From assembly GCA_030407315.1 (NCBI GenBank), contig JALQPE010001840.1:36570-100569 (forward strand): DNA of 64,000 bases, given 5' to 3'. The position numbers were made by a program, and so were the translations under genes. Below, piece by piece: positions 28,561 through 48,004 of this stretch. The stretch's first letter is position 1. Each line of letters opens with the position of its first letter. Source of the DNA: Asparagopsis taxiformis. Taxonomy: Eukaryota > Rhodophyta > Florideophyceae > Bonnemaisoniales > Bonnemaisoniaceae. Below the pieces are notes generated by a model. It was not told the DNA's origin. It was given only the letters and a program-made list of their open reading frames with translations, and made no database searches.

Positions 28561-28561
28561 A

Positions 28562-28628
28562 TACCCTCGAGGGTAGAGGATGGAACGAAGGTACGTGCGC
28601 GAATCTTGATCAAGATTCGCGCACGTAC
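28562..28628. repeat. Two adjacent perfect palindromes (14 bp and 38 bp)
   Basis: TACCCTCGAGGGTA at 28,562-28,575, then a perfect 38-bp palindrome at 28,591-28,628 starting GTACGTGCGCGAATC and centred on TTGATCAA. It lies at the end of the degenerate array and about 600 bp left of the transposase-like gene. Confidence 0.9.
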
Positions 28629-29225: not shown

Positions 29226-32200
29226 ATGGAATGCAAGTATGAAGGGTGCTTCTACTACTGCGTAGATGCTTATGCGCTCGCGCTGCATGAGCGAACGTGT
29301 CGCTACCGTTTCAACCCCTCTCCCCAACATTTCAACAACGCTCGTGTCCCTGCCGTCACCCATGAGCCTGCTCGAAACGGCGACCATGATTCCCCGCAAC
29401 CCAGCTCCCCAGACCCAGAATCTGGTCGTGCTTCCTCCAGCGACTCACCCTGTGACGCTTCACTGCCACCAACCTCAACCCCCTCCCGCGCAGACCTCCT
29501 CGTGCAATCCCTCGCCGCCAGTCTCACAACCCTCGAGTACAAGGCCGGCGCTGGCCGCGTGAGCGAAGTCATCACCATCCTACAAGACCCCGCATTCTCC
29601 CTAGAAAAGTTCAACAGCGCCGTTCGCACCGTAGAAGAATGTCGCCACGTTACCGCTTCCATGGTCGAAACACATTTCCGCACCGAAGGTTACAAGAGCC
29701 ACATCATTCCAGACAAAACTGGTAAGTACTCGGCACAGCTGTACCTCCGCGACCCAGTCGACATGCTCCGCAGGCAGTTAGCACTGGCTAACGACCAAAA
29801 TACTCTCTTCCACCCCTCCCCACAGACCGCCCCAGACGGCACCGCAATATTTTCTCATCCCCTACACACAGAATTCGCGAAAACGCTGCACCAGGTTACT
29901 AGACAGCGCGTGCAGCTCTCGGAAGATCCACAGGTCGTATGGGCAGAGGAAAATGATCCCACCGCTTCCTCCTTTGCCGGCCTCCTCCAAGTGTACTCCG
30001 ACAAGAGCAGCACAAGCCTCAAGAGCTCCGCAATCGTCGCATACCCCATACACGTCACACTGCTCAACTTCTCCGCCCCCCTCCGTCGCCACTGCATCCG
30101 TACCGGCCTCACCATCGTCGGGTATCTTCCGTACATTGTTAACCCTTCGTCCAACGCCTTGTTCGGTGATGAAATGCCGACAACCTCTAGTTCTGCTAGT
30201 CGCGCTCGCAAAATTGATATTCTTCATAAAGCACTCGAAAAAGTGTTTTCGTCCCTATCCACCGCGTTCTCTTCCGGGTTCCCCTGCACAGACTCCACTG
30301 CAACTGCCCGCCAATGCTTTCCCATCCTAGCCAATTATTGCTGCGACTTTCCAGAGGCCAAAGAGCTCTCATGCACTCGCAACAGCACTACCACCACACA
30401 TCCCTGCCACCGCTGCTACATCCCCGCCACTCAACTTGAATCCAGCGCGCCACACCAGCCCCGCTCCCTCGATGATACACGCTCTGCACGCCAAGAGAGC
30501 GCTCAGGAGCATACAACTGCTCCGCTCGAAGCTCTCTCCCTCCTCGAACAACACTCTGTCCTCGAATCGACCGCTCTTTTACCCACCAACAGTCCCCTAG
30601 ACCCCTACAACATTTTCTCCTTCGAGCCTCTGCACAATCTCCACCTCGGCATCTCAAAGCTCATCAAACAGTGCATTGTCCACCGCCTCAGCTCCCCAGA
30701 CCTCACCACCACTGCCTCCCATTCCGGGACACCTCGCACCTTCAAGAAGGTGAAAAAATCCATCCTCGCCGGCTCAAACAGCATTCTGTCCGCTATCGAA
30801 CGCGACTACTACATCACCGGTCTTCATGTCGACTTCTCCAAGGGTGAGAAGGGCACCAATTTGAACGGCCTCTTCACGGAGGACGGCATACGCGGCATGC
30901 TCGCAGCCAAAGACTATCACCATGTCGACATGGTGTTCCCTTTCATCGCAGCATTCATTGACACATGCTGTGACGAAGTAGATACAGCCCCCCTCACTTC
31001 CATCTGCACGCAATACTCTGACCTCGTCGCATGGGTCATGAAACGCGGTCGCATCAAGCACTGGACTGCCGCCGAACTAGAAAGCCTCCAGAACTCCATT
31101 TCCTATTTCAAACAATCAATGCTCTCCACCCTCGGCCCATTCCACACCACAGGTCTCAAAACTTTCAAGTTCCATCTTCTAGACCATCTTCCCGGTGACT
31201 TGCAGAGATATGGCGCCCTGGAACACATTGATGCAGGCCCCTACGAACACTCGCATCTTCTGTTCAAACAGAGTTATAGGAAAACCTCTCGAAGGCGCTC
31301 CACAGCCATGGAAGAGACTATTCGCCACATGGAATTCTCCTTGGCCACTCCAACTGGTCATACCCCATCGAACACATTGGGAAACGCACGCATGATATCG
31401 CCCACAGACGGTGCAGTACTCGTTCGCGACGGATTCACCGTTGCACTGCACGACTTTGCCTCCCTGCTGCCCGATGCAACCCTCCTCGTTGCAGATATCG
31501 ACGGACAGCCCGATCCTGCCACTCTTTTGCCGCTGCACAACTCCTCGTTCCCGTCTGGCACCATAACGCTATTCCAGCAACTCGGTGACACAGCTGCACA
31601 AGCGTTCCTCACCCTCGCTAGACTGCGCGCCACGGCAGAAGGCCCTCCAATACATGACATGGACATTTCCGTCACCGTGGTAAAGTCCGCCTACGTCATG
31701 GGAGGGTACGTCCCAGATGCCGACGACTTTGACCCGCACAGTGGCATGCTTCGCCCCACAAACGTGTCGAGGCACAAGCAGCAGCGCGTCTTTGCAACTT
31801 CATCGTTCGGCCCCGCAAAGAGATCGCAGTACTCCTTTGTCGTCATCTCCGGAACTGCCGATGACTACAGAACCATATGGGTAGGGCGCGTCCTGGCACT
31901 GGTACGCCTGCAGTCTCCAAACCTGTTTCAACCTGTAGAACTCGCTTTCGTTCAGTATATGACCTGCTTTGCCCCAAAAACCGCTGTGGAAAAATCACTT
32001 GGGTGCATTTGTTTAAAGTGGTCCACATGGGACCCGGACAACGGATCCGTTGACAGCAATGACACTGCATCCCACAGTGCAGGTGGTCCTTGGTTTGACC
32101 TCATTCCTGCATCTACTATATCTGGCACCGTGCACATCGTACGAAGTAACTTTCCAGTCAAGCCATTTACGAAACAAATGCACTGGTCGGACCACCGTTT

Positions 32201-32264
32201 CTATCTCAACCGCTTCTACACCAACACTGATTACCAATTCACAGATGATAATGAAGAAGAATAA
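29226..32264 (+). CDS. KDZ/Plavaka-like (CACTA-related) transposase
   Basis: An intact 1012-residue frame from the ATG at 29,226. Residues 3-25 form a C2HC finger (Cys3, Cys8, His21, Cys25), typical at the start of these transposases. Residues 464-483 (FSFEPLHNLHLGISKLIKQC) match the family's D-LH-LH-G-FK block, though with Glu467 where Asp is usual. Around 648-690, KFHLLDHLPGDLQRYGAL and EHSHLLFKQSYRKTSRR match the block that in fungal Plavaka elements reads like KLH-L-H...FG...E--H---K--YR-TN. A CHRC pair is at about 395-398. Cut-and-paste transposition of its own unit or of the whole 32-kb element is inferred. The next gene is convergent, 77 bases away. The superfamily is fairly well supported; the exact subgroup is not. 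Confidence 0.6.
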   Translation: MECKYEGCFYYCVDAYALALHERTCRYRFNPSPQHFNNARVPAVTHEPARNGDHDSPQPSSPDPESGRASSSDSPCDASLPPTSTPSRADLLVQSLAASLTTLEYKAGAGRVSEVITILQDPAFSLEKFNSAVRTVEECRHVTASMVETHFRTEGYKSHIIPDKTGKYSAQLYLRDPVDMLRRQLALANDQNTLFHPSPQTAPDGTAIFSHPLHTEFAKTLHQVTRQRVQLSEDPQVVWAEENDPTASSFAGLLQVYSDKSSTSLKSSAIVAYPIHVTLLNFSAPLRRHCIRTGLTIVGYLPYIVNPSSNALFGDEMPTTSSSASRARKIDILHKALEKVFSSLSTAFSSGFPCTDSTATARQCFPILANYCCDFPEAKELSCTRNSTTTTHPCHRCYIPATQLESSAPHQPRSLDDTRSARQESAQEHTTAPLEALSLLEQHSVLESTALLPTNSPLDPYNIFSFEPLHNLHLGISKLIKQCIVHRLSSPDLTTTASHSGTPRTFKKVKKSILAGSNSILSAIERDYYITGLHVDFSKGEKGTNLNGLFTEDGIRGMLAAKDYHHVDMVFPFIAAFIDTCCDEVDTAPLTSICTQYSDLVAWVMKRGRIKHWTAAELESLQNSISYFKQSMLSTLGPFHTTGLKTFKFHLLDHLPGDLQRYGALEHIDAGPYEHSHLLFKQSYRKTSRRRSTAMEETIRHMEFSLATPTGHTPSNTLGNARMISPTDGAVLVRDGFTVALHDFASLLPDATLLVADIDGQPDPATLLPLHNSSFPSGTITLFQQLGDTAAQAFLTLARLRATAEGPPIHDMDISVTVVKSAYVMGGYVPDADDFDPHSGMLRPTNVSRHKQQRVFATSSFGPAKRSQYSFVVISGTADDYRTIWVGRVLALVRLQSPNLFQPVELAFVQYMTCFAPKTAVEKSLGCICLKWSTWDPDNGSVDSNDTASHSAGGPWFDLIPASTISGTVHIVRSNFPVKPFTKQMHWSDHRFYLNRFYTNTDYQFTDDNEEE

Positions 32265-32341
32265 ATCTAAATCGCAGCACTCTATTGATAATGTACTACA
32301 TGATAAACCTTCTAGTCAACGTCACATTTACTGCACTAATT

Positions 32342-34626
32342 TCAACCATCCTCCATTACGCCAAAACCGTTATCAGCAGTGGCTGCATGGCGCCGCTCCA
32401 TGCCCCCATACTGTGGGGCATTGATTTCGACATTCAGGTTTGCAGTCAGGTGTCCAGCATATGGGTCAACGACGAAAAGTTCTGCGCCAATTAGTCCTTG
32501 CGCAATCACACAATCCATTACAGCACCGAGGTTTGACGTAATATGCGATTGAATCCAATCCTCGGACACTAGAACAAGTGATGAGCAGCGGTTTACATCA
32601 TCAACGACATGAACAATTCCAGACCCCTCTCCGCTTTGCCACACTTCAACAGCCTCTCTCGTCACAGTACGGCTTGCAAACACATGCCGTGACTGTGCAC
32701 TAGTCCGCTGTTCGCTCTCGACAACGTCCGTTTCTTCCCTTGCTTGCGAGCCTTGGAGACAAGACATGCAGTACACCACCATACCAACTAATTGCTGAAA
32801 AGCTACCCCCACATATTGACTGTACCGCCTTGTAAACTCCTTCTGCCGTGCACCTCCTTTCCCCTTCGGTTCATCCAAACACTCCACAGTAGTCACTAGC
32901 CAAGCATCCAGGCGCGCCAGCGTTAGTATGCTCGTCTCTATGTCCATTACTTGTTCTGGTCGTATCGAATAACCCCTGAAGATGTCCAGCACATTCACAG
33001 CTACTCGGTTGTTAAACCATGCATCACCATTCACTTCCATTTCGAAGCTGTCAGGAACCAAGCCTTTGCTGTATCGCAGCTCTGAGAACGGTGCCGTTCG
33101 CCACCTCCCCATATCCAAATCACCGTTACTTTCCCGTTTCAAAAGCTTCTCAGACGCTTCGCGCTTTTGTTCCTCTCGCTCGTCCATCTCAGCTCGCGTC
33201 GTCAGCATCGTGCATCTAGACATTAATTTCGTGTACCCCAGCGAACCGAACAATCTGTCCCTCGCATTACGCTTCCGTGCACTCATCACGTCGGACAGTT
33301 TCTGCGTCACCTTCACTTTCAATTCCTTGCTCCCCGCCACAGCCTCTTGACAGCACACACGCTGCTCCTCATCGGAAAACACATCACACCACGGACTTTG
33401 ACGCAGTACGTGTCGCACCAAGTCATTCAGCAGATCACTCTCGTCCCTGTACGAAGGTGTATACCACTGCAGATTCTTGATGATATAGCCCGGAGGGGTA
33501 GCAATATATCCTACACCGTTTTCGCTCCAAAGTGCCCCTTCTACCGGCTCTACCTCGATGGTACGTCCAGTCCAACGTCTCTGCGTTTGTTCCGCTATAG
33601 GGTCCAGCTCCATAGTCTCGTTCTTGCACCACTTTGTCAGGTTTTCCTCAACCGCCCTAAGAACTCCAAGGTATTTCACAGGAATGGCTTTCTGTATTTT
33701 CGACTTACCGCCACCGTGATCACTGATTCTACCTGTTCTCGCAATTGCAGTAAGGCTGGCATTTTCCGCCTGCAGAGTCTTCACCTTAGCCTCCAACGCA
33801 ACAATCTCCGTGGTGAGCGCCTTGTTTGCTATGTCCTGGCTAAACACTTTTTTTTCCAGCTCCGCGATCTTCTTCTTCTGCGCATTGATGCGACTCGCCA
33901 TTAAATCGATGGATTCCGGCGGATGCAACCTCTCTGCCCTCACCGTCCCCCCATCTCCCACGCTATCGGGAATATGATGTCCTCCATCGCCAATAGCCTG
34001 ACGTCGCGGGGGCGTTACGCGCATATTTGGCACCAATGACACTCTGTTGTGACGAGGCCCGCACTCCGGCTGCTCTCTCCCCTCAGTACCACCTGACCGC
34101 CGATGATAGTTGGCATCCTGTGAACGTTGCTCAGAAACAACATCCCTTGCCGCTATCCTCGGGTCCCTGACTGCATTACCTGCTGGGGCTGATGTACTCG
34201 GCATAGTTGGCGCAGTGGGGGTCACAGCCTCCAGTGTCTCGGAACCCCCGGCTGGGACTCCGTCTGCAGCACCTCCGCATCTGCCAACCCGGGAGGAACT
34301 ACCTTTGCCATAGCACTCTGCCGCAATTCCAACATGTTTTGAGCCACTATCATGTCATCATCATGATGTTCACTGTCCCTGCGAGCACGCTTGCCTCGGT
34401 CAAGCCCCATCTCTCTCCGCGCCGTTCCTCCTTCCTCACTTTCTCGCTGCGGATCCCCAGTTCTGCGCCGGTCCGTCTTGCGACTACCGGACCGCGGTTC
34501 AATGCTGCCGGTAGGCCCAGACCGCTTCTTCGCACGGGATTGTCGGGCACTCGATACAGCAGCTGCTGACCGGGTTTTCTGGAGGCCCGGAGGCTTTGGA
34601 GCTTTCTTCGCAATACGCGGCGGCAT
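32342..34626 (-). CDS. Coiled-coil protein, partner of the transposase-like gene (frame break)
   Basis: Two overlapping minus-strand frames look like one gene. The first starts at the ATG at 34,626 (PPRIAKKAPKPPGLQKTRSA, Lys/Arg-rich, nuclear-type) and stops at 34,222; the second is open from about 34,225 to 32,342 for 627 residues and lacks a convincing ATG at its beginning. A one- or two-base shift, or a very short intron, would join them to about 760 residues. After a disordered N-terminus, a coiled coil of about 50 residues begins MASRINAQKKKIAELEKKV and continues EIVALEAKVKTLQAENASL. The C-terminal ~450 residues are globular and unrecognised. Its upstream DNA is the module that also precedes the ParB-dioxygenase genes, so it may be co-expressed with them. 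Confidence 0.55.
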
Positions 34627-34808
34627 AATGAAGCTTTCCCGGAAGCGATGGAACGATTGAGTTGCACGAGATACAAAAAAGATTGCTGTATAGTGTCGGT
34701 AACCACAACGGTCTGCGATGAACGTTCAGGTCAGGTCAAGTACCGGATAATACGCCAACAGCCCAGATTGTATACGGTAGGCAGTCATCAACAGTATTTA
34801 ATGAGGTA

Positions 34809-34860
34809 CAATTACAGCTGTCGAGCTAGGCCGCGAGCACCCCTATGTCCGGAAGACGTC
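34809..34860 (-). promoter_or_regulatory. Shared upstream module of cargo genes (coiled-coil gene)
   Basis: ATTACAGCTGTCGAGCTAGG then GCGAGCACCCCTATGTCCGG, directly abutting repeat F7. It matches the module upstream of both ParB-dioxygenase copies. Confidence 0.4.
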
Positions 34861-35069
34861 CTGATTTGAATTAAAATTTGGGCTATTCTCAAAAACATGC
34901 ACATGTGAACATGTTTTTGAGATGGGGGTGTGCCGTACGGCACAATCGACCGCCCAAATCGATGTTTTTTGCAATATTTTTTTGTGCCCGAAATTTTAGA
35001 ATTTCTGGGCTGGCCAGCAATGCAATCGAGCTGGACATCCACCGGACGTCCATTTCAGGTTGGTCGTGA
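34861..35069 (+). repeat. Palindromic repeat copy F7
   Basis: Full unit with the GTGAGAGAGCGGGGCGGGAC tail and, downstream, a CCCCGCTCGGGG variant of the GC palindrome. Confidence 0.9.
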
Positions 35070-35248
35070 GAGAGCGGGGCGGGACCATGATGGAACAAGG
35101 ACCAAGACCTGTCCCTGGCGTATTGAGCCTGAAATTGACCCTTCGTCAGACGCCATTTAGCCTTACAGTTGGTGCTTACAGAAGCCAGTGATGACCCCGC
35201 TCGGGGCGGCGGTCGGTTCCTGGGGCCGTTGTGGCCAAATTAGACACC

Positions 35249-35410
35249 CTGATTTGAATTAAAATTTGGGCTATTCTCAAAAACATGCACATGTGAACAT
35301 GTTTTTGAAATGGGGGTGTGCCGTACGGCACAATCGGCCGCCCAAATCAAGGTTTTTTACAATATTTTTGCTGCCCGAAATTCTACAATTTCTGGGCTGG
35401 CCAGTAATGC
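35249..35410 (+). repeat. Palindromic repeat copy F8, 3' truncated
   Basis: Ends at CTGGGCTGGCCAGTAATGCA like F5, followed by direct repeat copy B. Confidence 0.85.
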
Positions 35411-36507
35411 ATTAGCTATGTGCTCTAAACCGATTCTAACAAGCAGAAAGAATCCTCTCCTTCATGACGATGCTCTCGAATTGAGTGCAATGCAACGGAC
35501 TCCCTCCAGGAGAACGACAAAGCATCGTCTTTTGCAAGACATTTTCGTACGAAAAATAATCGAAACACATATTTGACTTTAACCTAACAGCTATCGCGAG
35601 CACCGTACTCAGCTAAATTTCCTCTGTAATTTCCTTCCTCCAACCAATCAATAGCCGCTTGGTCACAGGCTTAAAAGCCTTCCACTATTTGTCCTATCCA
35701 TCGAAGAGGGTTCGATCCAGGCCTTGATGGGTGTGGAACCCGAGAACTTGAAAATGGAACATATTGCGACAGAGATGAGATGTCATTCTCTTTCGTTTAC
35801 TTTTTTCTAACAAGATTCTAAACGTCTACGCAGCGGAACGAACCCAATGTCGTCCGTCCGTTTTCAGCCCGGTGAGATGTTTTTGCCATTAACGGAGGTG
35901 GAGGCGGCTATGGAGGAAGCCTGCGGTTCGGGTATTCTTTCCATTAACGGAGGTGGAGGTGGCGGCTTTGGAGGAAGCCTGGAGAACATGTGAGATGTCA
36001 GTACCCATGGATCACAAGAAAAACATGTAGAGGTCCAGTTTGGATATTGTTGCCATTAACGGAGGCGGAGGAGGCGGCTACGGTGGAAGCCTGGAGAGCA
36101 TGTGAGATGTCAGTACCCATGGATCACATGAAGAACATGTTGAGGTGCGGTTCGGATATTCTTTCCATTAACGGAGGCGGAGGAGGCGGCTACGGTGGAA
36201 GCCTGGAGAAGAATAGAATAGTCCTATACCCATGGATCACAAGTAGACGTAGTTGGGCTCCTTTTCGAAGCCCATTCGTCTCTTGAATAAATTTAGCACC
36301 CAAATCATATACGATTGCCGAGTTGACACCCCGTATGTCTCGTTGGTAGAAATAGCAGGGGTTCCACCACTCAGCTGGCGGGAAGTAGTTACTGATTATA
36401 TGAGATATGGCTTAGCTCCCGCCAAAACCGATAGCTCTGGGCTCAGGTTCTCCAAATGTGGTTATACGAATGTGTTCTGACAATGGTAGAAGACGAATAT
36501 CTGCATC
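35411..36507 (+). repeat. 1.1-kb direct repeat, copy B
   Basis: Same orientation as copy A at 25.2 kb. Its tandem units (about 113 bp; e.g. CAGTACCCATGGATCAC at 35,999 and 36,112) differ in number and sequence from those in copy A. Confidence 0.85.
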
Positions 36508-36695
36508 CTGCTTTGAATTAAAATTTGGGCTATTCTCAAAAACATGCACATGTGAACATGTTTTTGAGATGGGGGTGTGCCGTACGGCACAATCGACCGC
36601 CGAAATCGATGTTTTTTGCAATATTTTTTCTGCCCGAAATTGTAGAATTTCTGGGCTGGCCAGCAATGCATCTGAGTCGGACATCCCCACGTCCA
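36508..36695 (+). repeat. Palindromic repeat copy F9
   Basis: The last forward copy, about 330 bp upstream of the methyltransferase-SET start codon. It deviates after GAGTCGGACATCCCCACGTCC. Confidence 0.85.
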
Positions 36696-37021
36696 GTGGC
36701 CGTCCGGATGTCGCTCACCTGGTAAGCGTGAGGCACCTGTGTCAACCTATGTGACTGGCGGCCTTGCAGTACAACACTCAAAGGCAGGGAATCACAATCT
36801 TTTTAAAATTTTTTCTCTACCACGTATCCGTCACAACTTATTACCTACACCGGTTACGGGTTTCAAGACCTTTCCAGTGCTGTGTACCCGTATACTCTGT
36901 TCCGTTCGATATCAACCAGTGTTCCTCACGAAAGAGTGCAAACGTCACGAGATACGTCGTCAAATTTGACTGTCTCGCCGAGCGGTCGCCATCCTGTACC
37001 GAATTTTCCACTCATTCCATT

Positions 37022-40000
37022 ATGACGAATAAGCGCAGGCGCAACAGCAATCCGATCGTTGACGACGCAACCGTGCCAATTCTGCGCGAACCCGCTAGCC
37101 CTTGGGAGGATTCTAGTGACATGGGTACACGTCGAAACGTAGGTCGCGCCGCCCGCGAAACTACTCTCGCTGGCAAAGACTTCCTCCGCCTCTTGCTGGA
37201 TTTATTCGCCCACTCAAGTTTCGCAGACTTGACGGACAAGCCGGGAGGTTTCACATACGCGGACCTTGGCGCTTGGGTTGCGCAGGGCACGGAAGAACAA
37301 TTTGTGGCGCTGCAAGGTCGACTCAGCATGTCCTTCAGCGGTCGTTCGAAGAATGCTGGAGTCGAGGCGGATGTTGCCGAAATCGTCATGGCAGAGATGA
37401 ACGTTGAGCGAGCCAAGCAGATTGTTCGTCTGGCATTACCCATTGCCGAGTTTTCAAGACAGGATGAGCGTATCGGGCAATGGGTTGAGCACTGCATCCT
37501 TTCTGGGATCGTGCCGCAGACCTTCCTTATTGGATGTAACATGCTTCCTTCGCCACTACAGGCGCCGCAGCGCGGGGAACCAAGCGCCTTCGTTCTTGCT
37601 CCACCGGAAACGTTCGAGGTATTGATGTATTTCCAAGCGTTGTCTATCATCCGAAATCACAACAAGAACCTGCCGCGTCGCCGAATAGGAGATGCGGCCG
37701 AAGAGGGGAACGAAGCCGCACGCGTCCCAGCCCATCGGAAAAGCACTAATCGAGCTTGTTACGTGGTTCAAGTTTTATACCATGCTTGGACCGATGTGGC
37801 CTACGCCGCAAAGTTTTCCAGCTTCGAAGAGTTGATGGCGCCGTACATCATTTTCGACAGCAGTGAGCATTGGTTTGACGTGCTCGATGAAGGTCTATTC
37901 GCACCGATGGAGCAGAAGCTAGATCTCTACCACAACAAAGCTCCCCTATCTCATCCTGATGGATATGGTGGAAAAGTAGAGACAAGAACCAGTGCGCAGC
38001 ACAGTGCATTTAGGGACCTTGTGAGGAAGTTCTTCGACCGGTTGCAGTTTCTTATCGTCAACCCGGACCTGTACACCTGGCCGGAGTCCGACCGCTGGGG
38101 GGCACTGGAAATATACTTCTCAAGCGGAAATCCGGACAAGCTGCCAGCGTATTTTGACACCCTCGACGAAGACGTTATGGCTGTCCTCCGCCCGGCACCA
38201 CAAGCCGCGGACGCAGAAAAGGTCCCCAAGCCGGTTGATGACACTCCCACTCGTCGCAACACAGGAGGGAGAGGTTTGGTTCCGTCGACAAGACACACAA
38301 CCAGGCTTCAACTTGGACCTGGGAGGACCAGTCTTACTGCCCAAGGGCCGTCTCCCCCGTCACCGTCACCCCATGCGACAGAAGAGCAGGAAAGTGAAGG
38401 GCAGGCTCTCGCAAAGGACTTTCTTTCGAAAATGAGTCAGTATTGCCGGGTGTACGACGTCCCTTTCGAAGATTTGGTCAGTGCCGACGAGAGCCGAGAA
38501 CACGTGCCCATCACGGGCAACGTTCAGCTCATTCTGACTGATCCGCCCTACAATGTTCGTCGTAAGAGGAACGATTCCAACTCTTCGTACGACAGGCTAA
38601 CTGCAGAAGATATGCAGGCTAGCATCGAAGTGTTTGACGAGCTGTTGCGCCCCGGTGGCCACGGCATCGTGTTCTGCTCGGTTTTGCAGTTCTACGAATG
38701 GTTCCATTACTTGGAAACGTACAAAGGACCGCAGTCAGAAGGCCCAACCGATACTGCTGCCAGTGATGACGGGTCGGATGAAGAAGAGGTTACGTCCATG
38801 AATTCGGACTCCGAAGCATCGCAGCACAGTGGCGAAGAAAGTGCGGATGAGGAGGAGGACGAGGAGGAGGAGGACGTCGTTCGGAATTCAGTTTTCTTCG
38901 TTGACGAGGTACCTCTGTTGTTTGTCCGACTACCTGGGCACCTCTATCAAATGCCGGGGCGGAAGAGGTACCAACGCATGAACATGGCAGAGGTCGCTAT
39001 CCACTTCTGGAAGCGAGGTGTTCCGTTCAAGACCGGAAGCGAGATGGTGGCCTATAGGAACCACGGATACATGGACGGCACGTACCCGGCGTGGTGCAAC
39101 GTCACCATCAATATGCCCGCCATCGATTCGAATGAGATGGTGTGGCGAACAAGGAGCACAACCGGTGCTACGGTCAGAGTTCGTGCAGAGCAGAAGAGCG
39201 TCGCTCTCATGATGGAGTTGATCAGCCAGCATTCACAGCCTGGTGATATTGTTGTCGATCCATTCTCTGGCACTTTCGCAACGGGAAAAGCAGCTATGAG
39301 CTTGCCTGAGCACCGTGTTTTCGTCGGCAGTGACATGGACAAATTGTGTGTGGTACGATCGCTTCCAAAGCTGTGTGCAGTCATGTCACGTGTAATTCTT
39401 TCAAACAACACTGACATGAGGGTCACGACAGAAGCGAAACAGAGTGCTGAGAAGTTCTTGGCGTCCCCCTCTGTCACGATGCGTACGCAGAGGGAACGCA
39501 GGATCATCGAACCCCCACCTGGCCTTCCCCTGTACCAGAGGTTCCCGAAATATATTCGGCAGTACCTCTGGCAGCTGTGCCCAGAGTCGATTGCGTCGCG
39601 CGAGCACATGGAGAAACCGGTACATTATTGGCCACCTTCCCTGCGCCGCTGGTTGCAAACTGAAAACCCTCGCGTGATGCGGGCACACGATTGTGTTGCG
39701 AAAAAATTGAGCGTTCGACCATCGCTGATTAAGCATCCAAATGCAGGAAGAGGGCTCTTCGCTGAACAGACATTTAATGTTGGTGACGAAGTATGTGCAT
39801 ACTACGGAACTGTTGTGTACTCTGATATGAGCAAGGAGTCGATGAGGTTCGCGTACGGAGAGGGTCACATGGCGATAACGAAGGAAACATTCTTGATGTA
39901 TGCTATCAAGCTGTATGCAACAGCGGAGGACGACGAAAACATCGAGCATCCAATTTGGATTGTTCCGGCTCCGTTCTGTTCGGCGCAGTTCATCAACGAC

Positions 40001-40219
40001 CCGCGGTATTTGCGAGGTGAGGACACTCCGGCGGAAGACACCAGGCGGATGGCCAACGTCGAGTTTGTCGAGAACTACAGCAGCGGTTCGACGGGGAAGA
40101 AGCTCAAGGCGAAGGACCTAGAAAATCCGAAGATCATTGTAGTACGTGCAATCCGCGATATCCGTCCGGGGCAGGAGCTCTACGTTCATTATGGGACAGC
40201 GTTTAGAGCATGGAATTAG
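37022..40219 (+). CDS. Beta-class DNA amino-methyltransferase fused to SET domain
   Basis: An intact 1065-residue protein; the ATG at 37,022 is the first in the frame. Residues 1-430 are helical and unrecognised. The methyltransferase follows: motif IV LILTDPPYNVRRKRN with DPPY at 507-510, then LLRPGGHGIVFC, an acidic insert (DEEEDEEEEDVV), and motif I DIVVDPFSGTFATGKAA starting at Asp746 with VGSDMD after it. Catalytic motif before SAM motif is the beta-class order of bacterial N6-adenine/N4-cytosine methyltransferases; DPPY favours adenine but does not settle it. Residues ~900-1062 are a SET domain: GRGLFA (909-914), GDEVCAYYG, FINDPRY with NDP in place of the usual NHS, ANVEFVEN and a C-terminal ELYVHYG with the catalytic-type Tyr. 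One protein could thus mark both DNA and a histone lysine. It sits alone at the centre of symmetry of the giant element. Specificity and activity are unknown. Confidence 0.85.
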   Translation: MTNKRRRNSNPIVDDATVPILREPASPWEDSSDMGTRRNVGRAARETTLAGKDFLRLLLDLFAHSSFADLTDKPGGFTYADLGAWVAQGTEEQFVALQGRLSMSFSGRSKNAGVEADVAEIVMAEMNVERAKQIVRLALPIAEFSRQDERIGQWVEHCILSGIVPQTFLIGCNMLPSPLQAPQRGEPSAFVLAPPETFEVLMYFQALSIIRNHNKNLPRRRIGDAAEEGNEAARVPAHRKSTNRACYVVQVLYHAWTDVAYAAKFSSFEELMAPYIIFDSSEHWFDVLDEGLFAPMEQKLDLYHNKAPLSHPDGYGGKVETRTSAQHSAFRDLVRKFFDRLQFLIVNPDLYTWPESDRWGALEIYFSSGNPDKLPAYFDTLDEDVMAVLRPAPQAADAEKVPKPVDDTPTRRNTGGRGLVPSTRHTTRLQLGPGRTSLTAQGPSPPSPSPHATEEQESEGQALAKDFLSKMSQYCRVYDVPFEDLVSADESREHVPITGNVQLILTDPPYNVRRKRNDSNSSYDRLTAEDMQASIEVFDELLRPGGHGIVFCSVLQFYEWFHYLETYKGPQSEGPTDTAASDDGSDEEEVTSMNSDSEASQHSGEESADEEEDEEEEDVVRNSVFFVDEVPLLFVRLPGHLYQMPGRKRYQRMNMAEVAIHFWKRGVPFKTGSEMVAYRNHGYMDGTYPAWCNVTINMPAIDSNEMVWRTRSTTGATVRVRAEQKSVALMMELISQHSQPGDIVVDPFSGTFATGKAAMSLPEHRVFVGSDMDKLCVVRSLPKLCAVMSRVILSNNTDMRVTTEAKQSAEKFLASPSVTMRTQRERRIIEPPPGLPLYQRFPKYIRQYLWQLCPESIASREHMEKPVHYWPPSLRRWLQTENPRVMRAHDCVAKKLSVRPSLIKHPNAGRGLFAEQTFNVGDEVCAYYGTVVYSDMSKESMRFAYGEGHMAITKETFLMYAIKLYATAEDDENIEHPIWIVPAPFCSAQFINDPRYLRGEDTPAEDTRRMANVEFVENYSSGSTGKKLKAKDLENPKIIVVRAIRDIRPGQELYVHYGTAFRAWN

Positions 40220-40445
40220 GGTCACGAAAGATGTTTTCATTTCGACTACAAATAAAGCTACGTTCCAGAGTTGAAGTATATCATATAATGCAGAATGTCC
40301 AGCCACCATTAGTCCAGGGTGAAACCTATTCGGCAGTACTCGCCTGTCAAAAACCAATCGTTCACACTCTAGGTGCACTTCGTCCGAGCAGTGAACCTGA
40401 CTGCTTGGTTGCTGTTATGCGTGCAGATGCAAAATACAAGACCAA

Positions 40446-40645
40446 GTTGAAATGGACGCCCGGTGGATGTCCAGCTCAGTTGCATTGCTGTCCAGCCCAG
40501 AAATTCTACAATTCAGGGCAGAAAAAATATTGCAAAAAACATCGATTTCAGCGGGTCGATTGTGCCGTACGGCACACCCCCATCTCAAAAACATGTTCAC
40601 ATGTGCATGTTTTTGAGAATAGCCCAAATTTTAATTCAAATCAGG
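40446..40645 (-). repeat. Palindromic repeat copy R1
   Basis: First reverse copy, about 230 bp after the methyltransferase-SET stop. Its 3' part is diverged (GACGCCCGG for GACGTCCGG; CTGTCCAG for CTGGCCAG). Confidence 0.85.
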
Positions 40646-40824
40646 GTGTCTAATTTGGCCACAACGGCCCCAGGAACCGACCGCCGCCCCGAGTGGGGTT
40701 GTCACTGGCTTCTGTAAGCACTAACTGTAAGGCTAAATGGCGTCTGACAAAGGGTCAATTTCAGGCTCAATACGCCAGGGACAGGTCTTGGTCCTTGTTC
40801 CATCATGGTCCCACCCCACTCTCT

Positions 40825-41033
40825 CACGACCAACCTGAAATGCACGTCCGGTGGATGTCCAGCTCGATTGCACTGCTGGCCAGCCCGGAAATTCTAAAAT
40901 TTCGGGCACAAAAAAATTGTAAAAAATCAACGATTTCAGCGGGTCGTTTGTGCCGTACGGCACACCCCCATTTCAAAAACATGTTCACATGTGCATGTTT
41001 TTGAGAATAGCCCAAATTTTAATTCAAATCAGG
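40825..41033 (-). repeat. Palindromic repeat copy R2
   Basis: Full reverse unit, mirror of F4. Confidence 0.9.
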
Positions 41034-41325
41034 GTGTCTAATTTGGCCACAACGGCCCCAGGAACCGGCCGCCGCCCCGAGCGGGGTCATCACTGGCTTC
41101 TGTAAGCACTAACTGTGAGGCTAAATGGCGCCGGAAGATGGGCCGATTGCAGGCTTCAAGCCTAAGTTATGCTAGGGAGAAATCTTCTTCCGTGTTTCAT
41201 CATGGTCCCGCCTTACTCCCTCAACAGAAACACTACTCACCCATCACGTTACTCATATTCCGTGCACTTTATATTAGTAGTGAACCCGCCTGCTTAGTTG
41301 CTGCAATGCGTGGATGTAGGCAGCA

Positions 41326-41533
41326 CACGACCAACCTGAAATGGACGTCCGGTGGATGTCCATCTCAGATGCACTGCTGGCCAGCCCAGAAATTCTAAAA
41401 TTTCGGGCACAAAAAATCTTGCAAAAATCAACGATTTGGGCGGGTCGATTGTGCCGTACGGCACACCCCCATCTCAAAAACATGTTCACATGTGCATGTT
41501 TTTGAGAATAGCCCAAATTTTAACTCAAATCAG
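41326..41533 (-). repeat. Palindromic repeat copy R3
   Basis: Full reverse unit, mirror of F3, directly followed by the shared upstream module of the ParB-dioxygenase gene. Confidence 0.9.
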
Positions 41534-41534
41534 G

Positions 41535-41605
41535 GTGTTCCCCGGATAAAGGGGTGCTCGCAGCCGCCCCAAAAGCCGCCTAGCTTGACAGCTGTAATTT
41601 TAACA
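41535..41605 (+). promoter_or_regulatory. Shared upstream module of cargo genes (right arm)
   Basis: Mirror of the module at 24.1 kb: GGGGTGCTCGCAGCC, then GCCTAGCTTGACAGCTGTAA. It lies 280-350 bases upstream of the ATG at 41,883. Confidence 0.4.
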
Positions 41606-41882
41606 CATTACACATCAAGGACACTGCCTGCTTCACGCCACCTCGTCAGGTTTCGAGAGCCCGACTCGGGCCCGTTCTGAACGGACACTCACATCTCGAT
41701 TGCCTGTCTTGCATTCCAGCGGTCACGATAGGTGTGTACCTAACAAAATTTCGGTTGTATTGTGTTATTATTTCCAGCGATTGGCGTTCACGACCATTCT
41801 TCAACTTAACGTGAAACATACCATCCACATCACTCGAATACGTCAACGTCAACCATCTCTTTTCCTTTCCAACTCAACAACC

Positions 41883-44800
41883 ATGGCGGATACGCATTTC
41901 AGCAGTTTGTTTTCAACGGTTTGCGGCGATCAAGTGAGCGCGTCAGCGGAGTCGCGCGGACTCAAGCGCGGCGTCGATGTCGACTTGTTTGCGGACGTGG
42001 ACGGTGCGGCTGTGCATATTGGGACGGCTTCGGTGAGCACTGCTGGTGGCGATGTTGGCCTTCCGCGCACGCTGCACAACCACAAGCTGCCGGAAACCGA
42101 CGAGGCCGACTATATCGTCGTGCGCAACATTGCGACTAAGGACAAGTTCAAGGACCTCCCGTTCCCGTACATGTTTGATGGCGCCGAGGGACCGCCGGAG
42201 ACGATGGGTGGAGCATACGCCGCGGCGTTTTACCCTTGGGATACTCGGATGATGCGCCCCGCTGCGGAGGATGGCTCTAGCGACATTCGTACCCCTGCTG
42301 CAGCGTCAAACTTCAACGCAGCGACGAACCAGGCCAGCTCGGGACGGATGCCCAGTACCGGTCCAGCAGGCGAAATCACTGGTTCGGGGGGTACGAAGCA
42401 TCCAGCACGCTCCGTCCCGGTTTCGGGAGGCACGAAGCGCCCTGCTCGCTCTGCCAGAGCCTCCAGTGGAGGCACGAAGCACCCTGCTCGCTCCAACGTC
42501 ACCGAAGCTACTACGCAGGACGTAACCGAGGTGGACGACGAACCGGAGGTGGCGGAAAGCATTCGTGAGCAGCAGGGGACGCAAATTATGGTGCCCAAGT
42601 TTGTGACGTCGGATTACGTCGGAGAAGGAGCGACTGTGTTGGTGAGGCAGCTAGTGGAACCGGCCGTGACCCTTCGCGATGTCAAAGAAGACCACGTGGA
42701 GGACCTGCGCAACAATATGTTGGCGGTGGGGTATGTGAGCTCTTCGCGTATCACTGTGACGGTGCTGAGGTCGCAGAACACGCATTTGTCCGCCGACACG
42801 CGTCTGTTCCAGAATGGCAAATTCCATGCCAATGCGAACGTGACCGTGATCGACGGACTGCATCGTCTCAATGCTATGCATAGCATTGCGGATGACTTCA
42901 CGCGCCTCACCCGTATGCACAGAACCAAGCTGCCACAGGAGGCAAACCGCTTGCGCTGGGTTACTCAGCCTCTGGATGTGTACTACCTTCGCCGCAAGGA
43001 CGACAGTGATCTCCAGCCTCATGAGATCATCCACAAGAGTGCAGAGTCGAACCATACGACTGGGACGCAACTGACGGAGCGCTCCCTGGTTCGAATCTTG
43101 TCGTCCATCCAGCAGTTCATCCGTACGATTGCTGTTGCAAACAACGTGGAAAACGCTGGCGACTTGCGTGAGTCTGATGTCATCCGAACATTGTTCGAGG
43201 CGCAGTTCATGGGGATGATGAATTCGACGAACACGGCTCGGCGGTGGACGCGTTTGGCTATAGCAACGCTGAAGCATCCTGTTCTCGACGACGTGTTGCG
43301 TGAGCTGAACAATTCCGAGCGCCGCAACGAGATTGGGATAACGCACCTGGACCACAAGATAGTGCGCGAGTTGCTGGAAGAAAACTTTGTCTTCGTCTTG
43401 CGTGGTCTTTCGGAGTACTTGAACCCTGCTCATGGCGGACGTCCGGATGGACGCTTTGACGTGAACGACTTTTATACATACGTCCGTCGCGTGACTGCAA
43501 TAGCAAATTCTCTGTACGCTGCGTTTGGGCGCCCAAAGAGTATTATGCGCAAGTCATTTCTGAGCACAGAGATGGCAATTGGGTCGGTTAAGCAGCCGAA
43601 GGAGTTGCAATGGCATCTCACCAATGCCATTGCAATGTATAGAGGGGACGACCGGAGCAGTGAGGTTCGAATGCGACGGAGAACCACGCGTTTACAGGAT
43701 TTGGAAACGAACTTGAAAGAGTTTTTCAATCCGACATTGAAGAAGAAGACTAAGGCTCGACGCAAACGCCGCCCTTCTGCTGCCAATGTGAGACTCACTC
43801 ACAAGAAGCAGCGGAATGTCGAACATGAGCCTGCTTCGCATGGCATCCGCCGCCGTTCACAGCGACTTCGCTCGACGGGGAGCACACGCCTCGAGGAAGA
43901 AGAGCCGGTTGTGGTACAACAATCCGCCGGGGAAGAAGAGCAGGCCGTTGTTGATAAACCCACCGATCAACAACAAGCCACTGCTTCCGGTGATGAGGTT
44001 GACGAAGACTCCGCCCGTTCCCCCGATTCTGCCGTTGAGATTGTCCCCCAAGATAACCAACGTGCTGGTGCGACTCCCTCCAACCAAGAATCTGTCCATA
44101 CCGCTTCGGACGAGGAAGACAAACAGGGTGCAGACGAGGGCCAAGTCGAAAGCAAGGGGGTCCGCGAAGTGACAATTACATTCACTGTTCCGGAAGGAGT
44201 GGAAGTCGATGAAGACGGTTACATCGTTCGTGACTCTCCTTCTGAAGACGACCTCCTCTTCGACGACCGTATGCCGTCTCTTCCTGACGATTTCGAAGAC
44301 CGAGCCGAAGGGCATCATCTGGCGCAGCGTCCCGCGGATGTCATCGCATCGGTGAGGGTTGGCTGTCTGCCCCCGATTGAGCTCAGGTTGTTATTGGAGA
44401 GTGTGGAAATCGATGAGGAGGGCAGAGAGGTGAGGTATTTGAAGCAAGTGGCGATGGACCCTGTGTTTGAGGGGCTGCATATTCCGGAAGAACATCGGGC
44501 TCGTGTGCTATTCGAAATCGATCACGTCTATCCGATGTTCTTCGCAGCGTGGAAGATGGCTGCCAAGGCGATGTGTGAGCCTACATCGACGTTTCTACCC
44601 TCGAGGCTGGACTTCGCCCAGGTTGCGCGAATGTCTACAAGCTGGAAGGATTCGTATGAGGCCGGCACTGGTATGGCGTACTTCCACAATTGCCGAACGG
44701 AAATCAACGAGCGAGGGTATACGGTGATGCACAATTTCGCGGATGTAAGCTACCTAGATGCGTCGGACAAGTTCCCATTTGACTTGGGTCTCATGGAAGA

Positions 44801-45815
44801 AATTCCTAACCAGGAATTGTTTCGGTACTTTTTGGGAACGTGGGAGGGGGAGCAGGTGCACAAGGACCCTGGGAACCGGCAGCTGTGGAGTCCCATTGTC
44901 AATACGGGGGACGATGAAACAGACGAGAAGAACCGGAATGAGGGGAGGGCTCGCTTCACGTCTACGCGCCACTGCCTGGTTGACTATGCCGAGAACGATG
45001 AGACGCATATCGACCGGTTCAAGTTTGTGACGCGGCGAGCCCTGCTGGATGTGTGGTTGGGAATCCTTGTCCGGCTGACAGGGCTGGAGGAGTGCGGTTT
45101 ACCGGGAGAAAAACTTGTCATGCCGGCATCTGGGGGACGGTTTTTGATAACGGGAAAGGGGTGTCCTCGGCAGGTCCCACACAATGATTTCCCTGTTCCT
45201 CCTCGCGACCGCAAAGATCAACTTCCGGGTTACTTTGTTATTGCCAACGGAGATGACCCATTCCCTATCTGGGTGTGTCCAGGGTCCCACAAGTACGTCT
45301 TTTCCAAAGCGCTGGAATTAGATATGTACGCCAAGACGATGAAGCTGAAGAAGGTAATCGTTCCGCCACGTTCAGTCTTCATCGGTCACGGCCATGTACA
45401 ACATGCCGGGGCAGGGCATGTCGACAGAGTTGTGTCACACACGACAACGAGGTATCACACGTATTTCAGGAATGCGTCGTATCCGATTCCCGACAATGTT
45501 TCGTTTGGTTTCATCAGGCGGTTGGGATTCGAAGAAGAAGTCATCGCCAATGCTCCGCGCCGGTCTGCAAGGCAAAGTCAACCGGCACCTGTCAATGTTC
45601 GCCACAAGACAGTTGTTCCCATCCCGGTCAAGAAAGATGGTAGGCCGAAGACAGGGCAGCTCCGAATGATGCGGATGAAGACGACAGAACCTCGCAAGGA
45701 TGTAATGCACACACCGAGTGTGGCCCCGGTAGTGCCTCTTCTGCCGGGACAACCTGGATATCTAGTTCACTATCATAGTGAGGACGAAGAGGAAGAACAG
45801 TTTTCCGACGGCTAG
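41883..45815 (+). CDS. ParB-like domain fused to 2OG-Fe(II) dioxygenase-like domain
   Basis: An intact 1310-residue protein; the frame is open further upstream but 41,883 is its first ATG. Residues 168-204 hold three copies of SGGTK(H/R)PARS. Residues ~250-345 match the ParB/sulfiredoxin-like fold: VKEDHVEDLRNNMLAVGY, then VTVIDGLHRLNAMHS at 320-334 with the signature DG-HR. A helical region follows, then a basic nuclear-type stretch (KKKTKARRKRRPSA, about 618-632) and an acidic linker. The C-terminal third carries a dioxygenase iron site: His1100-N-Asp1102 in PRQVPHNDF, IWVCPGSH, His1174 in HVQHAGAGH, and Arg1190 in TTTRYHTYF as likely 2-oxoglutarate ligand. ParB-like domains coupled to DNA-base-modifying enzymes are known from phage and bacterial systems, so oxidation of a modified base is a fair guess; protein or small-molecule substrates are not excluded. 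A frameshifted twin lies at 19,880-23,837. Confidence 0.8.
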   Translation: MADTHFSSLFSTVCGDQVSASAESRGLKRGVDVDLFADVDGAAVHIGTASVSTAGGDVGLPRTLHNHKLPETDEADYIVVRNIATKDKFKDLPFPYMFDGAEGPPETMGGAYAAAFYPWDTRMMRPAAEDGSSDIRTPAAASNFNAATNQASSGRMPSTGPAGEITGSGGTKHPARSVPVSGGTKRPARSARASSGGTKHPARSNVTEATTQDVTEVDDEPEVAESIREQQGTQIMVPKFVTSDYVGEGATVLVRQLVEPAVTLRDVKEDHVEDLRNNMLAVGYVSSSRITVTVLRSQNTHLSADTRLFQNGKFHANANVTVIDGLHRLNAMHSIADDFTRLTRMHRTKLPQEANRLRWVTQPLDVYYLRRKDDSDLQPHEIIHKSAESNHTTGTQLTERSLVRILSSIQQFIRTIAVANNVENAGDLRESDVIRTLFEAQFMGMMNSTNTARRWTRLAIATLKHPVLDDVLRELNNSERRNEIGITHLDHKIVRELLEENFVFVLRGLSEYLNPAHGGRPDGRFDVNDFYTYVRRVTAIANSLYAAFGRPKSIMRKSFLSTEMAIGSVKQPKELQWHLTNAIAMYRGDDRSSEVRMRRRTTRLQDLETNLKEFFNPTLKKKTKARRKRRPSAANVRLTHKKQRNVEHEPASHGIRRRSQRLRSTGSTRLEEEEPVVVQQSAGEEEQAVVDKPTDQQQATASGDEVDEDSARSPDSAVEIVPQDNQRAGATPSNQESVHTASDEEDKQGADEGQVESKGVREVTITFTVPEGVEVDEDGYIVRDSPSEDDLLFDDRMPSLPDDFEDRAEGHHLAQRPADVIASVRVGCLPPIELRLLLESVEIDEEGREVRYLKQVAMDPVFEGLHIPEEHRARVLFEIDHVYPMFFAAWKMAAKAMCEPTSTFLPSRLDFAQVARMSTSWKDSYEAGTGMAYFHNCRTEINERGYTVMHNFADVSYLDASDKFPFDLGLMEEIPNQELFRYFLGTWEGEQVHKDPGNRQLWSPIVNTGDDETDEKNRNEGRARFTSTRHCLVDYAENDETHIDRFKFVTRRALLDVWLGILVRLTGLEECGLPGEKLVMPASGGRFLITGKGCPRQVPHNDFPVPPRDRKDQLPGYFVIANGDDPFPIWVCPGSHKYVFSKALELDMYAKTMKLKKVIVPPRSVFIGHGHVQHAGAGHVDRVVSHTTTRYHTYFRNASYPIPDNVSFGFIRRLGFEEEVIANAPRRSARQSQPAPVNVRHKTVVPIPVKKDGRPKTGQLRMMRMKTTEPRKDVMHTPSVAPVVPLLPGQPGYLVHYHSEDEEEEQFSDG

Positions 45816-46082
45816 ATATCTTAACAACAACTACTTTAGCAAACAATTATCGAGAATATAATCATCTCCTTTATCACTTTCAATCTATGAACCTACTATA
45901 ATGCACTTCCGTTCCATGCTTTCAAACTAGATTGTCCATTCCCTAGTGGGTTGGAGCATGATTCCAGGACGATTCCCTCACATCTCTAGACTCGATGGTC
46001 TATGCTAGAAATAGCAGAACAATTGGGTTTATACGTGCTTCATCGCCAACTTGCTTCTGGTAATGGCTGGACGTGCACGATA

Positions 46083-46291
46083 CACGATCACCTGAAATGG
46101 ACGTCCGGTGGATGTCCAACTCAGATGCATTCCTGGCCGGCCCAGAAATTCTACAATTTCGGGCACAAAAAAATATTGCAAAAAACATCGATTTGGGCGG
46201 TCGATTGTGCCGTACGGCACACCCCCATCTCAAAAACATGTTCACATGTGCATGTTTTTGAGAATAGCCCAAATTTTAATTCAAATCAGGG
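46083..46291 (-). repeat. Palindromic repeat copy R4
   Basis: Full reverse unit, mirror of F2, downstream of the ParB-dioxygenase gene. Confidence 0.9.
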
Positions 46292-46583
46292 TGTCTAATT
46301 TGGCCACAACGGCCCCAGGCACCGGAACCGCCGCCCCGAGCGGGGTCATCACTGGCTTCTGTAAGCACTAACTGTAAGGCTAAATGGCGCCTAACGATGG
46401 GTCGATTCCAGGCTTCAAGCCTAAGTTATGCTAGGGTGACATCGTTTCCCCTGTTCCATCATGGTCCTGCCTTACTCCTCCACGACAAACACTACTCACC
46501 CATCACGTTACTCGTATTCCGTGCACTTTGTATGAGTAGTGAACTCGCCTGCTTAGTTGCTGCAATGCGTGGATGTAGGCAGC

Positions 46584-46793
46584 ACACGACCAACCTGAAA
46601 TGGACGTCCGGTGGATGTCCATCTCAGATGCACTGCTGGCCAGCCCAGAAATTCTACAATTTCGGGCACAAAAAATCTTGCAAAAATCAACGATTTGGGC
46701 GGGTCGATTGTGCCGTACGGCACACCCCCATCTCAAAAACATGTTCACATGTGCATGTTTTTGAGAATAGCCCAAATTTTAATTCAAATCAGG
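46584..46793 (-). repeat. Palindromic repeat copy R5
   Basis: Full unit, first of the three extra units of the right arm; preceded by the CTGCAATGCGTGGATGTAGG flank also seen at R3 and R7. Confidence 0.9.
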
Positions 46794-46973
46794 GTGTCTA
46801 ATTTGGCCACAACGGCCCCAGGCACCGGCCACCGGCCCCGATCGGGGCTATCACTGGCTTCTGTAAGCACCAACTGTAAGGCTAAATGGCGTCTGACGAA
46901 GGGTCAATTTCAGGCTCAATACGCCAGGGACAGGTCTTGGTCCTTGTTCCATCATGGTCCCGCCCCGCTCTCT

Positions 46974-47183
46974 CACGACCAACCTGAAATGGACGTCCGG
47001 TGGATGTCCAGCTCGATTGCATTGCTGGCCAGCCCAGAAATTCTAAAATTTCGGGCACAGAAAAATATTGCAAAAAACATCGATTTGGGCGGTCGATTGT
47101 GCCGTACGGCACACCCCCATCTCAAAAACATGTTCACATGTGCATGTTTTTTGAGAATAGCCCAAATTTTAATTCAAATCAGG
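46974..47183 (-). repeat. Palindromic repeat copy R6
   Basis: Full unit, second extra copy, with one more T in the CATGTTTTTTGAG arm, which breaks the perfect stem. Confidence 0.9.
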
Positions 47184-47474
47184 GTGTCTAATTTGGCCAC
47201 AACGGCCCCAGGAACCGACCGCCGCCCCGAGCGGGGTCATCACTGGCTTCTGTAAGCACTAACTGTGAGGCTAAATGGCGCCGAAAGATGGGTCGATTCC
47301 AGGCTTCAAGCCTAAGTTATGCTAGGTACGCATCTTCTTCCGTGTTTCATAATGGTCCCGCCTTACTCCCTCAACACAAACACTACTCACCTATCACGTT
47401 ACTCATATTCCGTGTACTTTGTATTAGTAGTGAACCCGCTGGCTTAGTTTCTGCAATGCGTGGATGTAGGCAGC

Positions 47475-47683
47475 ACACGACCAACCTGAAATGGACGTCC
47501 GGTGGATGTCCAGCTCAGATGCACTGCTGGCCAGCCCAGAAATTCTAAAATTTCGGGCACAAAAAATCTTGCAAAAATCAACGATTTGGGCGGTCGATTG
47601 TGCCGTACGGCACACCCCCATCTCAAAAACATGTTCACATGTGCATGTTTTTGAGAATAGCCCAAATTTTAATTCAAATCAGG
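47475..47683 (-). repeat. Palindromic repeat copy R7
   Basis: Full unit, third extra copy of the right arm; followed by the double GCCCCGATCGGGGC block that also adjoins F1. Confidence 0.9.
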
Positions 47684-47694
47684 GTGTCTAATTT

Positions 47695-48004
47695 GGCCAC
47701 AACGGCCCCAGGAACCGACCGCCGGCCCCGATCGGGGGCTATCACTGGCGTCTGTAAGCACCAACTGTAAGCCGGAGCCGGCTGCCGCCCCGATCGGGGC
47801 TATCACTGGCTTCTATTAGCACCAACTGTAAGCCAAAATCGCGTCTCACGAAGGGTCGATTTCAGGCTCAACACGTCAGGGAAAGGTCTTGGTCCTTGTT
47901 TCATCATGGTCCCGCCCCACCCTCTCGCGACCAACCTGAAATGGACGTCCGGTGGATGTCCAGCTCGATTGCATTGCTGGCCAGCCCAGAAATTCTAAAA
48001 TTTC
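47695..48004 (-). repeat. Palindromic repeat copy R8 (3' part)
   Basis: Mirror of F1. The unit stops at the AAAATTTC position, as F1 does. Confidence 0.8.

Follow-up and report, generated by a model that had tools for sequence, protein, structure and literature searches.

The transposon and its genes

The window, by which we mean the whole 64,000-nucleotide stretch of DNA analysed here, contains a giant transposon of the Plavaka type, the arms of which enclose three genes (Table 1): that of a Plavaka transposase, that of a probable coiled-coil protein on the opposite strand, and that of a protein joining a DNA amino-methyltransferase (MTase) to a SET domain, called MTase-SET below. Self-comparison resolved the inverted arms into two pairs of blocks, 17416-19612 against 49654-47475 (95.5% identical) and 19316-25231 against 46378-40480 (96.0%). 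The element has both the transposase and the terminal inverted repeats expected of Plavaka, and its termini read TCTGTG..CACAGA; for Plavaka elements, a 2-3 bp target-site duplication and termini TGT..ACA or CATCA..TGATG are described (PMC12730594). It is bordered on the left by a high-copy repeat and on the right by a different repeat.

Table 1. Features of the transposon, in window coordinates
Feature	Position	Strand	Basis
Whole Plavaka-type transposon, ~32.2 kb	17419..49651		Self-BLAST inverted arms; termini TCTGTGTTCTCGG...CCGAGAACACAGA, CG outside both ends
Left terminal inverted repeat, 7.8 kb	17419..25231	+	Inverted blocks 95.5% and 96.0% identical to right arm
ParB-N/dioxygenase gene, left-arm copy; frame without 5' part, one frameshift	19880..23449	-	ORF, comparison with right copy
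Repeat array 1, between left ParB-dioxygenase gene and transposase; four GTGCCGTACGGCAC copies	24175..26604	+	Self-comparison, motif count
Plavaka transposase	29226..32264	+	PF18759, E=1.6e-24
Probable coiled-coil protein, divergent to MTase-SET gene	32342..34225	-	ORF; Pfam matches all below cut-off, several coiled-coil families
Repeat array 2, directly upstream of MTase-SET; three palindrome copies	34854..36757	+	88% direct copy of 24672-26604
MTase-SET: predicted beta-class DNA amino-methyltransferase (residues 501-774) and SET domain (909-1058)	37022..40219	+	ORF, Pfam, family alignment, structure models, genome copies
Repeat array 3, upstream of right ParB-dioxygenase gene; three palindrome copies	40373..41625	-	Self-comparison, motif count
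Right terminal inverted repeat, 9.2 kb	40480..49651	-	Self-comparison
Intact 1310-aa ParB-N-like (DGLHR) and probable 2-oxoglutarate-dioxygenase (HxD...H...R) protein	41883..45815	+	Right arm; sequence and structure comparison
Repeat array 4, inside right arm; four palindrome copies	46082..48027	-	Self-comparison, motif count

The MTase-SET protein and its relatives

The MTase-SET gene occupies an uninterrupted open reading frame (36764-40219, forward strand), and its ATG at 37022 opens a protein of 1065 amino acids without a stop. A first-pass annotation had placed the gene at 37022-40219 and read six motifs in one frame, and it proved exact: DPPY lies at residues 507-510 (DPPYN at 507-511) and DPFSGTFATG at 746-755 (DPFSGT at 746-751), with GRGLFA, FINDPRY, ANVEF and ELYVHYG downstream of these MTase motifs. 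Motif IV (DPPY) thus precedes motif I (FxGxG) within one domain, the beta-class order that had been recognized at the time. The profile search and structure prediction then proposed as checks also came out in favor of both domains. In Pfam, N6_N4_Mtase (PF01555, E=3.4e-15) and the C-terminal SET domain (PF00856, E=1.0e-6) both exceed their curated cut-offs; the MTase half matches the beta-class amino-MTase fold, and the SET core yields a good structure model matched by Foldseek to SUV4-20 (E=2e-5) and SET7/9 (E=1.2e-4), the nearest solved SET domains including histone enzymes. An acidic insert of ~50 residues appears, on reading the sequence, to split the MTase domain between DPPY and DPFSGT. 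The N-terminal 500 residues match no Pfam family at E<=1, and there is no chromodomain, the hallmark of the rotifer N4CMT group, among the Pfam matches of the protein at E<=1.

The closest curated bacterial models are those of the adenine MTases PRK11524 and CcrM, with scores far under their cut-offs, and among the sequences of solved structures phmmer ranks first an adenine enzyme entered as DpnA (M1.HpyAVI). The bacterial N6-adenine MTases CcrM, M1.HpyAVI and M.BceJIV share with MTase-SET the fold, the motif order, DPPY, QK and FxG, but they have neither a SET domain nor the 500-aa N-terminal region, and no comparable acidic insert was noticed in the alignments. The strongest single prediction is that the MTase half works on adenine as a DNA amino-MTase. 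Ranking after it, the SET half, of a kind of enzyme that frequently marks histones, is predicted to methylate a lysine, the putative substrate being a chromatin lysine (histone) or possibly the transposase.

A full-length search, in which the 7992 candidates with the most shared words were scored, returned a single protein, P0001, which is 98% identical and represents 13 sequences. When residues 690-1065 were used as the query, 12 proteins were found, 11 of them distant (26-38% identity, with 81-99% of the query stretch covered). In an alignment of 13 members, two of which are the window's protein and the 98% identical P0001, Pfam detects PF01555 in all 13 and SET in 11 (E<=0.01). DPP[YF] is present in 11, the exceptions being P0003 (EPPS) and P0010 (EPPR); QK is kept in every member and FxGT (motif I) in 12. 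The pseudoknot motif of SET domains is canonically Asn-His. All 13 members instead have Asn-Asp (N992, D993) and therefore form a divergent SET group. N1012 is likewise invariant, and Y1057, which we take to be the tyrosine at the C-terminal catalytic position, is found in 12 of 13. P0010, with its altered motif IV, also lacks this tyrosine and the motif I glycine. At least 33 loci in viral contigs are related to MTase-SET; their best segments all fall within residues 484-890, short of the SET domain.

The partner gene and the repeat arrays

Each arm carries a copy of a gene whose product combines a ParB-N fold and DGxHR-type motif with a probable 2-oxoglutarate Fe(II) dioxygenase domain containing HxD...H...R. 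Set against the right copy, the left one is frameshifted at about codon 136, and the other four internal indels are multiples of three. The dN/dS ratio between the copies is 0.26 over the first 1110 codon pairs (bootstrap 95% 0.17-0.42), and 0.41 over all 1166, a value raised by the variable C-terminal end. The partner gene has accordingly been under purifying selection. The partner frame matched no Pfam family at E<=1, TET/JBP included; Pfam likewise found no TET/JBP match in eight relatives of the partner, and comparison of a partner profile with PDB sequences gave nothing meaningful (best E 1.3). Among viral contigs, none of 17 pattern matches to the partner was confirmed; among prokaryote genomes one locus of 49 was (L034), on a 3.4-kb contig in a cyanobacterium bin, and it is probably a eukaryotic stray.

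The four repeat arrays are built of units of ~390-500 bp and adjoin genes, occurring also in the outer arms; array 2 sits between the probable coiled-coil gene and the MTase-SET gene. All 15 copies of the perfect 14-bp palindrome GTGCCGTACGGCAC that the window contains fall inside the element, and 30 shuffles yielded none. Fourteen copies are inside arrays and the 15th is at 19474 in the left arm; genome-wide there are 8237 copies (control 0). The element also has 19 copies of the sequence GGACGTCC, located in arrays and in subterminal regions, and the rest of the window has none; 0.9 would be expected in the window. A search with the palindrome's flanks only, the palindrome itself not being used, returned the same 15 places to within one base, together with four partial matches lacking the palindrome (~17714, 19023, 47163 and 48051). 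When the 15 units, which were picked by their palindrome, are aligned, eight other windows of 14 columns equal the palindrome in invariance. Since other core stretches are equally invariant, what is conserved may be the whole unit core, not the palindrome alone. The arrays could serve as a shared two-way promoter, as a ParB site or as a transposase site.

Abundance in the host genome

In the genome to which the window belongs (141.5 Mb, 3156 contigs), 13 matches to phycobilisome genes were found, 11 of them on one contig. On this plastid contig one phycobilisome gene recurs with equal score 177,170 bases apart, as in an over-assembled circular plastid. The presence of phycobilisome genes on a plastid-like contig points to a red alga as the host. 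The host is probably Asparagopsis taxiformis, of which the published lineage 6 assembly comprises 142.47 Mb in 3308 contigs with a 176,936-bp plastid, ~70.7% repeats and 33.48% DNA transposons (PMC12115072). A bacterial or phage origin of the window is ruled out by its Plavaka, Copia-type RVT_2 and FANCI matches together with the plastid-bearing genome. No C5 cytosine MTase was matched in the genome, in a search whose controls were detected in 10 of 14. A search for MT-A70 also gave no match, but there the controls too were nowhere detected.

The 18-bp terminus of the element has 656 + 648 = 1304 exact matches in the genome (reversed control 0); counted as two ends per element, these amount to about 650 element equivalents. 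Four assumed end pairs elsewhere in the genome span 16 to 40 kb, and the terminus is common to 30 fetched ends and five assumed end pairs. Five far ends whose positions were guessed were not found, because element size varies. In all 30 single ends CTGTG is preceded by nCGT, which is ACGT in 27, although the A is biased because the query started with ACGT. CG is also present at both ends of all five assumed pairs, namely that of the window and four found by a pattern without the leading A. This fits a 2-bp CG target-site duplication; the invariant CG could instead belong to the element. No empty site was seen among 24 loci examined, where uninterrupted copies of the flanks continue differently.

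The 43 scored copies of MTase-SET, a lower bound (at least 43, from 4133 first-look candidates, the window's own copy not being among them), are all identical in protein and free of internal stops. Over 3198 bases, six of eight copies compared show no nucleotide difference and the other two carry two and four silent changes; in an ungapped comparison of the flanks of these eight, 1.5 kb upstream is identical in four and the downstream stretch in one. The element is very abundant and probably recently amplified, with MTase-SET as its cargo. A chance fusion or frame artefact is ruled out, because the alignment with 11 distant homologues extends across the two domains and every one of the 43 scored genome copies is intact.

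The genome holds at least 150 matches to PF01555, scored among 2605 candidates and falling into several score classes, with stops in five of the 150. One representative from each of four classes was taken as a sample of this wider family. That of the class with most matches (L114) has PF01555 and SET by Pfam and, by eye, an N-terminal ParB-like stretch with DGAHR for which Pfam gives no match at E<=0.1; over 882 columns it shares 23% identity with the window's MTase-SET. The same genome thus apparently also encodes a related ParB-MTase-SET protein. The other three (L115, L116 and L117) are MTases with no Pfam match to SET; DGxHR can be seen by eye in their N-termini, where Pfam finds no ParB, and L115 and L116 appear by eye to have a cysteine-rich tail. 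This suggests an order of events in which a bacterial-type ParB-MTase was the start, SET joined it, and ParB was then split off onto the dioxygenase protein in the window's element.

Possible functions of the two proteins

The domain fusion, its conservation, the transposon context, the copy number and the palindrome arrays are observed, and the enzyme activities, the SET substrate and the direction of effect are inferred. Our preferred reading, held tentatively and falling a little short of an even call, is that the transposon encodes its own means of anti-silencing or self-recognition, a two-headed writer and a ParB-dioxygenase that keep promoters and ends accessible. The MTase half would modify DNA with 6mA, while a lysine on chromatin (of a histone or possibly of the transposase), near the place where the protein is held, would be methylated by the SET half. 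The ParB-N and probable dioxygenase protein may bind the palindrome arrays in the fashion of parS, and its dioxygenase part may oxidise a methyl mark there, on DNA or protein. With both proteins, the element could place marks of its own and remove those of the host, so that promoters and ends stay accessible. The element itself is taken as their probable target because of the transposon setting and published examples. Transposon TET enzymes are thought to aid escape from silencing (PMC12730594), and 6mA in other eukaryotes accompanies permissive chromatin (PMC12695648). Because of these two precedents, we favor anti-silencing or self-recognition over silencing with moderate confidence. A more far-reaching version is possible but rather doubtful: a self-contained chromatin programme in which one polypeptide writes both a DNA methyl and a histone-lysine mark while a ParB-type protein, spreading along palindromic arrays that resemble centromeres, oxidises marks, in which the host, where no C5 cytosine MTase was matched, may carry 6mA mainly via its transposons, and in which the relatives run from ParB-MTase through ParB-MTase-SET to the split pair.

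It could also be that the MTase licenses transposition through marks on element ends or arrays by which the transposase discerns its own, newly replicated or occupied DNA, with SET methylating the transposase or another protein and not histones. Dam methylation plays a comparable licensing role for bacterial IS10. The presence of the palindromes in the arrays and of GGACGTCC both there and in subterminal regions, the transposase encoded in the same element and the identical copies, which suggest recent activity, all agree with this; however, licensing alone would leave the SET domain of distant relatives and the dioxygenase-like partner unexplained, and we regard it as unlikely.

The first-pass annotation had suggested that the fusion perhaps silences or protects the element carrying it. 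This interpretation is supported in part: the carrier element has been found, in the form of the Plavaka-type transposon, and silencing has fared badly. 6mA and a histone mark could tame the element, limiting damage to the host, or shut down competing elements, and for rotifer 4mC with SETDB1 silencing has been proposed. Nevertheless, ~650 element equivalents and identical copies are unlike a tamed family, and the dioxygenase-like partner suggests removal of marks, which makes silencing of itself or of rivals quite improbable. Just as improbable, in our judgement, is that a single domain works: either the MTase is active while SET has degenerated into a reader of chromatin or peptides, or vice versa. 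The Asn-Asp of the SET motif and the changed motif IV of P0003 and P0010, the latter with its further losses, would agree with this, but the conservation of N992, D993, N1012 and, in 12 of 13 members, Y1057 argues that function is kept, as does the well-modelled SET core. That the genes merely hitchhike without benefit to the element, as large transposons do pick up genes and as the stops at some PF01555 places and the frameshifted left partner copy might suggest, is very improbable given purifying selection on the partner gene, catalytic residues conserved across divergent relatives and intact frames in every scored copy.

Relation to known systems and significance

Fungal DNA transposons, including Plavaka, carry, like the window's element, an enzyme acting on DNA methyl marks; theirs is a TET/JBP eraser, whereas here a writer of DNA and lysine marks is predicted beside a ParB-dioxygenase without TET/JBP match in Pfam, and Phytophthora HarbingerS and MuDR share with it a transposon-borne SET methyltransferase, although the passage on them does not mention a DNA methyltransferase joined to it (PMC12730594). 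The first-pass annotation had cited a rotifer precedent: bdelloid N4CMT is a bacterial beta-class amino-MTase in a eukaryote with a chromatin domain, but this is a chromodomain reader in a host gene with SETDB1 separate, whereas the window's SET is in the same chain and transposon-borne; orthologues of N4CMT are stated there to be absent from other sequenced eukaryotes (PMC8885841). The 'Plavaka giant repeats' of Amoebidium resemble the window's element in being intron-poor gene clusters that reach 50 kb and include a Plavaka transposase, and matches to red algae are mentioned; they differ in having tyrosine recombinases, and neither MTase-SET nor ParB-dioxygenase is mentioned in the section on them (PMC11244446). 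Dinoflagellate and charophyte retrotransposons also bring their own DNA methyltransferase, but these are cytosine-C5 enzymes, with no SET fusion mentioned in the excerpts available (PMC5890265). Transposons with one epigenetic enzyme are known already; for an amino-MTase and SET in one chain, borne by a transposon along with a ParB-dioxygenase, our full-text literature search found no report, though an earlier mention is possible.

The published Asparagopsis taxiformis assembly was built from PacBio reads (PMC12115072), so that, should the host be this species, the raw reads may allow the DNA-methylation half to be checked, provided that their kinetics were kept. The fusion would couple two writing steps that usually reside on separate eukaryotic proteins in one polypeptide belonging to a mobile element and not to the host; if both activities are real, it comes close to something new in kind. 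This would bear on how transposons escape control, on a possible source of eukaryotic 6mA outside the MT-A70 family, and on how bacterial ParB and methyltransferase parts have entered eukaryotic chromatin.

Features within and around the transposon

Inside the giant Plavaka-type transposon, a probable coiled-coil protein could be an accessory factor in transposition. Outside it, the single-frame FANCI-like gene fits a host with few introns. On its left side the transposon is flanked by sequence (window 17116-17415) that is itself repetitive, with at least 40 scored matches among 1223 candidates.

Further features of the window inside and outside the transposon
Feature	Position	Strand	Remarks
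Coiled-coil protein, probable	32342-34225	-	transcribed away from the MTase-SET gene, with array 2 between the two
Minisatellite within transposon	26621-26946		43-bp unit, 7.7 copies, 98% matches
FANCI-like gene	9205-13047	-	PF14676, E=1.5e-11; one long frame
Tle1-like hydrolase domain	4755-5648	+	PF09994, E=1.6e-59

Relatives of the transposon proteins

In the whole-genome search of the A. taxiformis assembly, C5 cytosine methyltransferase (PF00145) was not found; PF01555 was scored at no fewer than 150 places, of 2605 candidates. Among the loci fetched for the PF01555 score classes, L114:619-4083 (G000:C353) encodes another MTase-SET class, from the same genome as the window and apparently the commoner one. 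Because a ParB-like stretch bearing DGAHR is recognizable by eye at its N-terminus (none is reported by Pfam), it is a probable ParB-MTase-SET triple fusion. Three more MTase classes (L115, L116 and L117), without a Pfam SET match, carry DGxHR in their N-termini, again by eye, and in two of them the C-terminal tails are cysteine-rich and zinc-finger-like.

A relative of the ParB-dioxygenase (30%) is encoded on L034, a contig of 3.4 kb from a bin assigned to the cyanobacterium Moorena; this contig is likely a eukaryotic contaminant there.

On the contig of the mbb (bromoform) cluster of Asparagopsis taxiformis, the legend of the mbb-locus figure labels genes as site-specific and adenine-specific DNA methyltransferases (PMC12115072). 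These genes possibly belong to the transposon families treated here.
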